Of a DNA stretch of 64,000 nt, positions 54,458-59,139 are shown in pieces. Origin of the DNA: Sphingomonas anseongensis (lineage in GTDB: Bacteria > Pseudomonadota > Alphaproteobacteria > Sphingomonadales > Sphingomonadaceae); assembly GCF_023516495.1 (NCBI RefSeq), contig NZ_JAMGBC010000001.1, positions 992,001 through 1,056,000 on the forward strand, given 5' to 3'. The position numbers and the translations under genes were made by a program. How positions within the stretch are numbered: position 1 is the first letter of the stretch; each line of letters opens with the position of its first letter. Under the pieces are notes generated by a model that was not told the origin of the DNA, searched no databases, and saw nothing but the letters and a program-made list of their open reading frames with translations.

Positions 54458-55177
54458 ATGACCGACAACCAGGACTTCCTTTCCGGCAAGCTTGCGCTGG
54501 TCACCGGAGCAAGCCGCGGGATCGGCGCAGCGACCGCCGCGGCGCTGGCCAAGGCCGGTGCTCACGTGATCCTTGTCGCCCGCACCGCCAAGGCTCTGGA
54601 GGACGTCGAGGAGCAGATCCACGAAGCAGGCGGAAGCGCTACGATCGCTCCGCTCGATCTCACCGAAGGCGAAGGAATCGGGAAGCTGGCGGCAGCAGTC
54701 GCCGAGCGCTGGCCATCGCTGGAGGTGCTCGTGCTGAACGCGGCCACCCTCGGCTCCCTGACTCCAGTCGAGCACATCGACTCCAAGGAATATGCGCGCA
54801 TCCTCACCCTCAATGTGGCCGCGAACCAGGCACTGATCGCGGCTTTCGACCCGCTTTTGAGGCGAAGCGAGCGAGCGGACGTGGTCGCAATCACATCCTC
54901 CGTCGGCCATGAGCCGCGGGCCTTCTGGGGCGCCTACGGATCGTCAAAGGCCGCCCTGGAAAACCTTGTTCTCGCCTATGGCGACGAGACGGAGCGGCTC
55001 GGGAAGATCCGCGTCCACGTGGTCGACCCGGGCGCCACGCGCACGAGGATGCGCGAGCTGGCCTTTCCGGGCGAGGAGCCGGAGAGCGTCAAGCCGCCCC
55101 AGGTCGTCGCCGACTTCATCCTCGACCGCCTCGGCTCCGACGCTCCAACCAAGGAGCGGGTCCGCGTCGATTCCTAG
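54458..55177 (+). CDS. Short-chain dehydrogenase/reductase
   Basis: 239 residues. NAD(P) motif LVTGASRGIGAATAAAL, NAG-like NAATLGS, catalytic Ser in AITSSVGH and YxxxK in WGAYGSSKAALEN. The substrate is unknown. It is paired with purF in many alphaproteobacteria, as here. Its stop overlaps that of the converging membrane hydrolase gene. Confidence 0.93.
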   Translation: MTDNQDFLSGKLALVTGASRGIGAATAAALAKAGAHVILVARTAKALEDVEEQIHEAGGSATIAPLDLTEGEGIGKLAAAVAERWPSLEVLVLNAATLGSLTPVEHIDSKEYARILTLNVAANQALIAAFDPLLRRSERADVVAITSSVGHEPRAFWGAYGSSKAALENLVLAYGDETERLGKIRVHVVDPGATRTRMRELAFPGEEPESVKPPQVVADFILDRLGSDAPTKERVRVDS

Positions 55178-56121
55178 TCGAGCGGGATCAGGAACGGGTC
55201 GTAGCGCCAGGACCGGCCGCGCTTCTCGTTCGGAAGCAGGTTGCTGGCGAGAAAACGCTGGTCGGTGAGATAGGCGCGGCCGTCGTCTACGACGACCATC
55301 GGCATTCGCGACCAGTAGAGGAAGGCGCGGACCCGGGGGCTCCGCTCGCGCCCCGCCTGCAGCCGCCGGTCGTCGAGGTGAAGCAAGCCTTCGCGGCCAG
55401 TGAGCGACAGGCCGCGCGAGGGCGAATAGCTTCCAACGCCGTAGCTTTTCCCGTCGCGCCACAGCATCGTCCGTCGCCAAAAGGCGAATGGCGGGGGGCT
55501 TGCGATGACTTCCGTAGGGTGGATCCGGTTGTTCAGAAGTGCACGCGTCGCCGCTGACTCGACGCGCTGGGTGAGGCCCAGGTTGAAAGCGATATAGGCG
55601 AGTAGCAGGCCAAAGGCCGCCTGCGCCGGAATCCCCGACGGAGCACCTCCCCTGCGCTCCCGCCAGACGGTCAGCGCAATGCCGCCTCCCATCACCAGCC
55701 AGAACACCCAGTCGATGATGAAGATCGCATCGCCCGCCACCCATTTGGGGGAGAATGGCGCGAGGATGTTAACTCCGTAGGTATTGAGGAAATCCAGCGC
55801 CGGGTGGCTGAGCACCGCCGCCAGGGTGACGAGGAATAACGGCAACGAGCGGAACGGCACCGCCTCCGGGTTGGGGCGCCAGCGGTCGTAGAGCCACAGC
55901 AAACCGACGATCGCCGCGGCCAACAGCGGCCAGCCGAGCACGGCGTGGGTGGGGCCCCGGTGGAAGGCGATGCCCTGAACGTTGAAGAACAAGGGCGCGA
56001 AGACGTCGATGTCGGGCGCGTTGGCGCCGAGCAGGCAGCCGGCCATCGCCAGGCGCGACTGGCGCTTGAGGCCCATCTGGCCGAGCAGCCCCCCGGCAAG
56101 CGTGTGAGTCAGATTGTCCAA
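55174..56121 (-). CDS. Membrane-bound metal-dependent hydrolase (DUF457/YdjM-like)
   Basis: 315 residues from a TTG start (56121). The family pattern is clear: MDNLTHTLAGGLLGQMGLKR, GANAPDIDVFAPLFF, FHRGPTHAVLGWPLL with the conserved His/Asp metal residues, and SHPALDFLNTYGVNILAPFS. Several membrane helices follow, then a soluble C-terminal part. These proteins are inner-membrane hydrolases of unknown substrate, some DNA-damage regulated in enterobacteria. Confidence 0.9.
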   Translation of the reverse strand: MDNLTHTLAGGLLGQMGLKRQSRLAMAGCLLGANAPDIDVFAPLFFNVQGIAFHRGPTHAVLGWPLLAAAIVGLLWLYDRWRPNPEAVPFRSLPLFLVTLAAVLSHPALDFLNTYGVNILAPFSPKWVAGDAIFIIDWVFWLVMGGGIALTVWRERRGGAPSGIPAQAAFGLLLAYIAFNLGLTQRVESAATRALLNNRIHPTEVIASPPPFAFWRRTMLWRDGKSYGVGSYSPSRGLSLTGREGLLHLDDRRLQAGRERSPRVRAFLYWSRMPMVVVDDGRAYLTDQRFLASNLLPNEKRGRSWRYDPFLIPLD

Positions 56122-56138: not shown

Positions 56139-57148
<1,010 letters not shown>

Positions 57149-57152
<4 letters not shown>

Positions 57153-57235
57153 GCGAAAAATCCACCAAGCCAGACAATCAGGAGGACGATGACGATCAGC
57201 ATCATAACCATCGGAAAGACGTTGATTGGCCTCAT
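57149..57235 (-). CDS. 28-residue membrane microprotein between KorA and KorB
   Basis: The whole product is MRPINVFPMVMMLIVIVLLI followed by VWLGGFFA: a short polar N-terminus and one strongly hydrophobic helix. Its ATG (57233-57235) overlaps the korA stop as ATGA, and its TGA (57149-57151) overlaps the korB ATG the same way, so the three are one translationally coupled unit. I know of no named family. The exact fit on both sides and the clean membrane-helix composition support a real gene over a chance ORF. Confidence 0.7.
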
Positions 57236-59139
57236 TTCAACGCCTCGTCGATCGCTTGCTCGATCTCGGCGATGCGGAACGGCTGCCCGGCGACCTTCGA
57301 CAGCGGCTTCGCGTCGACGAGGAACTGGTCGCGCAACACCGTCTTGAGCTGTCCCATGTTCATCTCGGGGACGAGGATATGCTCGAAGCCCTTGAGCAGC
57401 GCCGACATATTCTTCGGCATCGGCCAGATGTGGCGGATGTGGATGTGGCTGACGTCGAGCCCGCGGTTGCGGGCGCGTCGGACCGCCTGGTGGATCGGGC
57501 CGTAGGTCGAGCCCCAGCCGACGACGGCGAGCTTGCCGCTGGTCTCGCCAAGGCAGACGTCCTGGTCGGGAATCGTCTCCGCGACCTTGAGAACCTTGTT
57601 CGCGCGCTCGAAGGTCATCTCTTCGTGAGCGACGGGGCTGTAGTCGATGTTGCCGGTGCCAGGCTGCTTCTCGATCCCGCCGATCCGGTGCTCCAGCCCG
57701 GGAGTGCCGGGCTTGATCCACGGACGCGCTAGGTCGGCGTTGCGGACGTAAGGCATCACCCCCTCGCCTTCCGCAGGCGCGGTCTCGAAATAGCTGACTG
57801 GGAACGGCTGGTAGCCGCTCATGTCCGGCACCCGCCACGGCTCCGCAGCATTGGCGATGTAGCCGTCGGTCAGGAGCATCACCGGCACCATGTAGCGGGT
57901 CGCGACCCGACAAGCCTCGATCGCGCAATCGAAGGCATCGGCCGGTGAGCGGGCGGCGAGCACGACCACCGGCGAATCGCCGTTGCGCCCGTAGACTGCC
58001 TGGTAGAGGTCCGACTGCTCGGTCTTGGTCGGAAGGCCGGTCGAGGGGCCGCCGCGCTGCGAGTTGACGACGACGAGCGGAAGCTCGGTCATCACCGCAA
58101 GCCCGAGCGCCTCGGTCTTCAGGGCAATGCCCGGCCCGGATGACGACGTGATGCCAAGCTGGCCGGCGTAGCTCGCGCCGATTGCCGCGCAAATTGCGGC
58201 GATTTCGTCTTCCGCCTGGAAGGTCGTGATCCCGAACTCCTTGAGGCGGGCGAGATGATGGAGGAGCGGGCTCGCGGGAGTGATTGGATATGAACCGAAG
58301 AACATCCGTACGCCGGCCAGCTGGCATCCGGCGACAAGGCCCAGCGCCAGCGATTCCGCGCCGGTGACTGTACGGTAGAGACCGGGTTCCGCGGGCGCAG
58401 CAGCGATGTGGTGCTGGGCGATCCCCGGCGCGCTTAGCTCCACCGTCTCGCCATAAGCGTGGCCGGCGTTGAGCGCGGCGATATTGGCTTCGGCAAGCTC
58501 GGGCGCCTTGGCGAACTTGGCCATGAGCCAGTCGACGATCGGCTGGCGGTCGCGGTCGAACATCCACAGCGCCAGGCCGAGCGTCCACATGTTCTTGCAT
58601 CGCAGGGCTTCCTTGTTGCCCAGCCCGAACGGCTTCACGGCATCGAGCGTCAGCTGCGAAATGTTGAAGTGGATGACCTGCCACTTGGCGAGGCTTCCAT
58701 CCTCCAGCGGGTTCTGCTCGTAACCGGCCTTCGACAGGTTGCGGGCAGTGAACTCGCCTTCGTCCGCGATGATGAGCCCGCCTTCGCGAAGCTGGTCGGC
58801 GTTCACCTTCAGCGCCGCCGGGTTCATCGCCACGAGCACGTCCGGCTGGTCGCCCGCGGTGTCGATCGCGGTTGATCCGAAATTGATCTGGAAGGCGGAA
58901 ACGCCGAAGGTCGTGCCTTGGGGAGCGCGGATTTCGGCGGGAAAGTCCGGGAAGGTCGCAAGATCGTTGCCGGCAAGCGCCGTCGAAAGCGTGAACTGGC
59001 CGCCGGTCAGCTGCATTCCGTCGCCGCTGTCTCCGGCGAAGCGGACCACGACCGCTTCAGGCTGCGGATGGGCGGCGGCTTCCTTTTCGGTGAGGAGATG
59101 GGTGGCTGTCGCCACAAGCGGGTCCTTCACAAACGTCAA
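57232..59139 (-). CDS. korA: 2-oxoacid:acceptor oxidoreductase subunit alpha (gamma-alpha fusion)
   Basis: 635 residues. The N-terminal gamma domain (VVRFAGDSGDGMQLTGGQF and FPAEIRAPQGTTFGVSAFQI) is fused to the alpha domain (FGSYPITPASPLLHHLARLK, GPSTGLPTKTEQSDLYQAVY). This is the KorA layout of the 2-oxoglutarate:ferredoxin enzyme group. The start is a TTG at 59139 with GGAGGAG about 14 bases upstream; a GTG at 59130 is an alternative. It forms one operon with the microprotein and korB. Confidence 0.95.
   Translation of the reverse strand: MTFVKDPLVATATHLLTEKEAAAHPQPEAVVVRFAGDSGDGMQLTGGQFTLSTALAGNDLATFPDFPAEIRAPQGTTFGVSAFQINFGSTAIDTAGDQPDVLVAMNPAALKVNADQLREGGLIIADEGEFTARNLSKAGYEQNPLEDGSLAKWQVIHFNISQLTLDAVKPFGLGNKEALRCKNMWTLGLALWMFDRDRQPIVDWLMAKFAKAPELAEANIAALNAGHAYGETVELSAPGIAQHHIAAAPAEPGLYRTVTGAESLALGLVAGCQLAGVRMFFGSYPITPASPLLHHLARLKEFGITTFQAEDEIAAICAAIGASYAGQLGITSSSGPGIALKTEALGLAVMTELPLVVVNSQRGGPSTGLPTKTEQSDLYQAVYGRNGDSPVVVLAARSPADAFDCAIEACRVATRYMVPVMLLTDGYIANAAEPWRVPDMSGYQPFPVSYFETAPAEGEGVMPYVRNADLARPWIKPGTPGLEHRIGGIEKQPGTGNIDYSPVAHEEMTFERANKVLKVAETIPDQDVCLGETSGKLAVVGWGSTYGPIHQAVRRARNRGLDVSHIHIRHIWPMPKNMSALLKGFEHILVPEMNMGQLKTVLRDQFLVDAKPLSKVAGQPFRIAEIEQAIDEALK

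Follow-up and report, generated by a model that had tools for sequence, protein, structure and literature searches.

A conserved hydrophobic microprotein encoded between korA and korB in Sphingomonadaceae is a candidate membrane-docking subunit of the KorAB oxidoreductase

We analysed a 64,000-nucleotide stretch of Sphingomonas anseongensis DNA (the window), in which a very short open reading frame (ORF) lies between the genes for the two subunits of a 2-oxoacid:acceptor oxidoreductase (Table 1). The start codon of korA is uncertain, and its ORF as listed starts with TTG. The kor naming of the first-pass annotation held for the alpha subunit, which scored 635 bits against TIGR03710 (2-oxoacid:acceptor oxidoreductase alpha), above the cut-off of 483, but less well for the beta subunit, whose 244.7 bits against TIGR02177 (PorB/KorB subfamily) are under the cut-off of 261.9. 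Because KorB falls under this cut-off, 2-oxoglutarate is treated here as the presumed substrate of KorAB. No strong transmembrane stretch was found in KorA or KorB by Kyte-Doolittle analysis, and KorAB appears from its sequence to be a soluble enzyme. The YdjM-family gene begins 17 nt downstream of korB in the same direction and is possibly a member of the operon. It is not specific to loci that carry the microprotein, since 31 of 39 loci with it and 35 of 71 without it gave a YdjM match (some genomes contribute more than one locus). Elsewhere in the genome, a 2-oxoglutarate dehydrogenase E1 is encoded besides KorAB (contig C1, 1096094-1098745; 1083 bits), which rules out KorAB as the sole route to succinyl-CoA; there are therefore two possible routes from 2-oxoglutarate.

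Table 1. Features of the korA-korB region, in positions of the window
Feature	Position	Strand	Description
korA	57232..59139	-	2-oxoacid:acceptor oxidoreductase alpha subunit; POR, POR_N and PFOR_II domains (Pfam); TIGR03710
ATGA overlap, microprotein start with korA stop	57232..57235	-	ATG 57235-57233; korA TGA 57234-57232
Microprotein ORF	57149..57235	-	ATG start, 28 codons in all, then TGA; product MRPINVFPMVMMLIVIVLLIVWLGGFFA
Conserved N-terminal cap, residues 1-7	57215..57235	-	K/R2 and N5 kept
Predicted hydrophobic helix, residues 8-23	57167..57214	-	conserved face P8, L/M9, M12, L13, V/I16, L19, L23
ATGA overlap, microprotein stop with korB start	57149..57152	-	TGA 57151-57149; korB ATG 57152-57150
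korB	56139..57152	-	beta subunit, 337 aa; TPP_enzyme_C (Pfam)
YdjM-family inner membrane protein gene	55174..56121	-	PF04307, E 1e-29

The 28-residue ORF and both of its ATGA overlaps, as described in the first-pass annotation, were confirmed in the sequence; the plus-strand reading of the same segment is unrelated to the microprotein. The best 19 residues of the microprotein have a Kyte-Doolittle mean of 2.91, compared to 1.55 for KorA and 1.02 for KorB. Of 5000 dinucleotide shuffles of its own 87 bases, 20 yielded a hydrophobic ORF comparable to it, a frequency that would lend something to the idea of a chance ORF in the spacer, and shuffled 87-base pieces from the korA/korB region gave one in 0 of 3000.

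We searched 61 genomes of the window's genus, which we take to be Sphingomicrobium of GTDB, with KorB and read the 30 best loci at the korA-korB junction. A hydrophobic ORF of 24-44 codons lies between korA and korB in 29 of these 30 loci, and these ORFs mostly follow the pattern MK(P/Q)(I/L)NxxP(L/M)(I/L)xML. Four further genus junctions (L031, L032, L081, and L082) also have the ORF. Read base by base, 33 of 34 genus junctions contain an intact, hydrophobic ORF. The exception, L020 from genome G032, is without the ORF, and its korA and korB are 3 nt apart. In L015 the frame is extended N-terminally and the start codon is absent at the usual place. The first-pass annotation had proposed looking for an equally placed ORF in other sphingomonads, and these junctions bear it out; broken or non-hydrophobic versions, which it had named as evidence against a gene, were not generally seen, and one genus member has lost the ORF.

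A census with a profile of 31 genus sequences (A1) detected the microprotein in 64 of 71 genus genomes (E <= 0.01), where only the matches to sequences outside those 31 are independent of the profile. KorB was found in 65 of the 71 (E <= 1e-60), and 64 of these 65 KorB-bearing genomes match the microprotein profile, G032 being the sole census genome with a KorB and without a microprotein. One metagenome-assembled genome (MAG) has two matches, and all 65 matches share the strand of a KorB and lie 5' of it, at a distance of -1 to 468 nt; no copies away from korB were found in the censused genus genomes. None of the six genus genomes lacking KorB at E <= 1e-60 has a microprotein match, although four of these are less than 90% complete and in G028 a partial KorB is found where a contig ends. 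Conservation in relatives makes a chance origin untenable, and we regard that explanation as having next to no likelihood. We conclude, judging by this conservation, that the sequence represents a real gene, and its strict tie to korAB speaks for a function connected with the KorAB enzyme.

What is conserved is more than position. Ten of the 33 genus copies (L003, L004, L007, L009-L012, L017, L025, and L081) start 22-193 nt past the korA stop, three genus copies end 373-468 nt upstream of KorB, and in L019, L023, and L031 extra genes stand between an intact ORF and korB. Thus, the ORF stays intact despite insertions on either side. By eye, palindromic repeats such as CCCCGGCGAAGGCCGGGG were seen in the korA-microprotein spacer of L007 and L009; likewise, the junctions of L085 and L092 are filled with other such palindromes, and L093, of the same genus as these two, carries the microprotein.

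We then grouped 209 korA-korB junctions, some of them from the same genome twice, by the size of the gap. A hydrophobic short ORF was present in 0 of 101 junctions with gaps of <=6 nt, 0 of 33 with gaps of 7-60 nt, 42 of 54 with gaps of 61-200 nt, and 10 of 21 with gaps of >200 nt, where one of these last ten (L120) belongs to a longer frame and is not a microprotein. Many non-carriers, accordingly, join korA directly to korB. No such ORF was found in 12 non-carrier junctions of 66-123 nt, which serve as a control set. A loose SD-like word lies upstream of 37 of the 52 ORFs (L120 included), a count to which, with no background rate to set it against, we give no weight. At E <= 10, a second model (A2), made from 27 sequences, picked up all 51 carrier loci and none of the 159 non-carrier loci, among which the best value was 15. 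The carriers recovered at the same place from outside this model were L184 (1.6e-8), L173 (9.4e-7), L171 (1.6e-4), and L170 (0.0074).

As a separate observation, 13 sphingomonad loci, some of the same genome, have different genes inserted in the korA-korB junction. These inserts are membrane-protein ORFs of 118-160 residues in L019, L031, L120, L135, L207, and L241 and are soluble-looking or lipoprotein-like in L023, L155, L156, L177, L180, L219, and L236. Given this mixture, we rejected recurrent membrane proteins as a rule for gaps of >200 nt.

Selection on the microprotein was estimated by the Nei-Gojobori method over codons 2-23 (22 codons) in 14 pairs, with partners matched by closeness of KorB. 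The pooled ratio dN/dS was 0.48 for the microprotein and 0.17 for korB, a rough estimate given such short sequences and a greedy choice of pairs. The 129 amino-acid differences observed compare with 160.0 +- 5.3 for random placement of the same changes, and 0 of 2000 random-placement runs were as low as 129. Pairing by microprotein distance instead gave 118 differences against 157.9 +- 5.5 expected. Of 528 sequence pairs, 471 had a lower pN than pS. Exceptions were pN = pS in 2 of the 14 nearest-KorB pairs, near equality in one other, and pN > pS in 3 of 16 pairs matched by microprotein distance. The ratio is not near one, which the first-pass annotation had named as the value that would count against a gene, and the deficit of amino-acid changes implies that selection acts on the amino acids of the microprotein.

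These results bear on the proposal, also in the first-pass annotation, that the ORF serves as a coupling or leader peptide, in which case all that would count is that ribosomes move on from korA to korB. The double ATGA overlap in the window is what such a peptide would show. However, its amino-acid sequence should then be free and its overlap fixed, and we found neither: amino acids are under selection, the spaced genus copies described above stand apart from korA or from KorB, and almost half of the 209 junctions manage gaps of <=6 nt with no ORF. The coupling claim is therefore not supported, and we consider this explanation very improbable.

Beyond the genus, profile A1 matched 39 of 199 family genomes at E <= 0.5, four of them of the window's genus. 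At least 8 of the 35 non-genus matches (G111, G134, G146, G187, G201, G210, G245, and G254) lie at the korA-korB junction, with a match in G072 left out of this count. Five of these eight are the best non-genus matches to A1; the sixth-best, in G069 (E 0.004), is far from korB. When 78 non-genus junctions were read, from 77 of the 152 KorB-positive genomes and mostly upper ranking, a diverged ORF was present in 8 (for example, MDDKPKSVLPLVGMLIVILAVIYMLWS and MNKPLHPAILIAMLIAVLAVIYFLLG). Both kor genes were present in 79 of the best 80 named loci, which are partly of the same genomes as other junctions read, and the microprotein in 10 (L164-L171, L173, and L184, with L164, L165, and L167 of the window's genus). 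The named carriers are Sphingomonas alba, S. edaphi, Sphingomonas sp. BN140010, three Sphingomonas MAGs, an Allosphingosinicella MAG, a Proteobacteria MAG, a Sphingomonadales MAG, and an uncultured Sphingomonadaceae. In the same order outside the family, the ORF was found in 0 of 18 junctions (from 18 of 24 genomes searched). Only the window's own genome matched below E 1e-3 among 289 genomes of the class, in a search that could miss copies as diverged as L170; five weak matches (E 0.007-0.016) all fell in frames of 244-559 residues. Some other genera thus have diverged copies in the equivalent position, most non-genus junctions read are without the ORF, and the microprotein is dispensable somewhere.

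On a KorA tree of 130 rows, made by a quick method and with a poorly resolved backbone, presence of the microprotein changes at least six times. Its history could be one old gain followed by several losses or could be several gains. The loss in G032 adjoins the carrier L022 on this tree, and is recent and clean. In L022 the sequence GCGCTGA occurs at each end of the ORF, which suggests that the G032 loss was a deletion between short direct repeats.

The composition of the product is strongly constrained. In columns 9-23 of 33 genus sequences, 0 of 495 residues are charged and 3 are polar (N, Q, H, S, or T), and together with the Kyte-Doolittle mean this shows an almost purely hydrophobic product. 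We infer from these data a hydrophobic helix that would span the membrane. Conserved residues in the 33 sequences include K2 (31/33), N5 (30/33), P8 (32/33), and L13 (32/33); residue 2 is R in one, that of the window. Besides this N-terminal K or R, an R also occurs within columns 24-26 in 12 of the 33 copies, so that the positive-inside rule cannot decide the orientation. Entropy at positions 5-23 has a 100-degree period in 36 genus sequences (p 0.0039) and in 47 sequences with diverged copies added (p 0.0018), the diverged rows having been placed by hand in the alignment. The corresponding values for positions 9-23 are p 0.0066 (36 sequences) and 0.0032 (47). The low-entropy positions 8/9, 12/13, 16, and 19 fall on one side of a helix, whose helical character is thus read from the conservation pattern rather than from a structure. 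This conserved face, together with the lack of a strong transmembrane stretch in KorA and KorB, suggests that the helix may touch a second one in the membrane, either a partner's or that of the microprotein's own copy. The anchoring of KorAB to the membrane that the first-pass annotation proposed is plausible, and the conserved face suggests more than a passive anchor would need.

Two further explanations were weighed. According to the main rival to docking, the microprotein binds and tunes another membrane protein (of the YdjM family or of a respiratory complex) and is merely co-expressed with korAB. This would account for a conserved face within the hydrophobic stretch, where KorAB has no helix to offer, and the YdjM gene is close at hand. 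By contrast, it leaves unexplained why every genus copy is 5' of korB and none elsewhere, even with spacers or genes inserted, and the frequent YdjM matches in non-carrier loci mean that YdjM does not track the microprotein. We consider this rival unlikely, though a serious competitor. The second, a self-associating membrane peptide that is independent of KorAB and has lodged in the operon with a regulatory or mildly toxic role, would fit the size, the hydrophobicity, and the single conserved face; the strict tie within the genus and the absence of the microprotein from the six KorB-less genomes, several of them incomplete, speak against it, and we judge it improbable.

KorB itself was compared between carriers and non-carriers. 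Near-perfect residue differences separated the 10 named carriers from the 70 others, and the comparison was widened to 117 full rows (35 genus carriers, 11 diverged carriers, and 71 non-carriers). The candidate signature positions 10, 14, and 30 (L165 numbering) were rejected, as in the diverged carriers the residue there is mostly that of the non-carriers, and no tested KorB residue tracks the microprotein through the distant carriers in these 117 rows. The closest to doing so, and a weak lead, is P267 (L165 numbering), which occurs in 34 of 46 carriers (30/35 genus, 4/11 diverged) and 0 of 71 non-carriers, a pattern that may be due to kinship.

The window microprotein has no Pfam match at E <= 1, and its sole NCBIfam match is to NF033488 (lmo0937 family membrane protein), over residues 12-27 at E 0.041 and 13.9 bits, under the cut-off of 30. 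Its likeness to the lmo0937 family is confined to this weak match, which is seen in 1 of 27 microprotein members and probably reflects hydrophobicity alone. Pfam and NCBIfam scans of the 27 members returned weak matches only (best E 0.014 and 0.021), none over a cut-off, and CydX / YbgT_YccB is absent from the nine Pfam families matched by these members at E <= 5. The lack of any family match fits the earlier suggestion that the gene may be overlooked.

In kind, the microprotein has the features of a small transmembrane redox accessory subunit: a single predicted hydrophobic helix, conservation, and a tie to one operon. KdpF, CcoS, and AcrZ are likewise short single-helix accessory proteins, each tied to one complex, but their partners are integral membrane complexes, whereas KorAB is predicted to be soluble; none of the three was returned in family or structure searches with the microprotein. 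CydAB, too, is an integral membrane enzyme, unlike KorAB. In the sections consulted, E. coli CydX is described as a 37-aa protein of one helix, encoded in the cytochrome bd oxidase operon, with one helix side conserved, a C-terminus of variable length, and presence in only part of the operons (PMC4325964). The microprotein and CydX (with CydY and CydZ) are, on that description, both short one-helix proteins whose operon also encodes the two subunits of a redox enzyme. CydX is encoded with cydAB and after it, whereas the microprotein gene stands between the subunit genes of korAB. We regard CydX as the closest analogue in kind, and as no relative by any test run.

For M. tuberculosis KorAB, likewise a ferredoxin-type KorAB in an aerobe, the consulted sections report no identification of the physiological electron acceptor and suggest membrane association, on the basis of hydrophobic stretches inside the alpha subunit; a small membrane subunit is not named in those sections (PMC2773412). 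No small protein in korAB was found in the literature as far as titles and the starts of abstracts tell.

We tentatively favour, as the most likely mechanism, membrane docking of KorAB by the microprotein as an accessory subunit. It would be translated together with the enzyme from a korA-microprotein-korB mRNA and would insert as a single-pass membrane protein, forming a small subunit of KorAB in an orientation that lets its N-terminal conserved cap touch the soluble KorAB complex. The helix would pack through its conserved face against a membrane helix, either of its own copy or of a membrane redox partner, and this would hold KorAB at the membrane, at a site where its electrons could be accepted. 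Counting against docking are the absence of the microprotein from most non-genus junctions read and from G032, and the failure of any tested KorB residue to track it through the distant carriers. A bolder version, which we offer as speculation that is probably wrong in at least some part, is that a subunit of ~25 residues makes a soluble ferredoxin-type 2-oxoacid oxidoreductase a membrane-docked respiratory dehydrogenase, with the face binding a membrane acceptor and electrons passing to the quinone pool.

Comparing operon junctions revealed here a gene that has fewer than 30 codons in most copies and is missed by curated family libraries. The electron route of KorAB in an aerobe is left open in the consulted sections of the M. 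tuberculosis work (PMC2773412), and the microprotein gives a handle on it.
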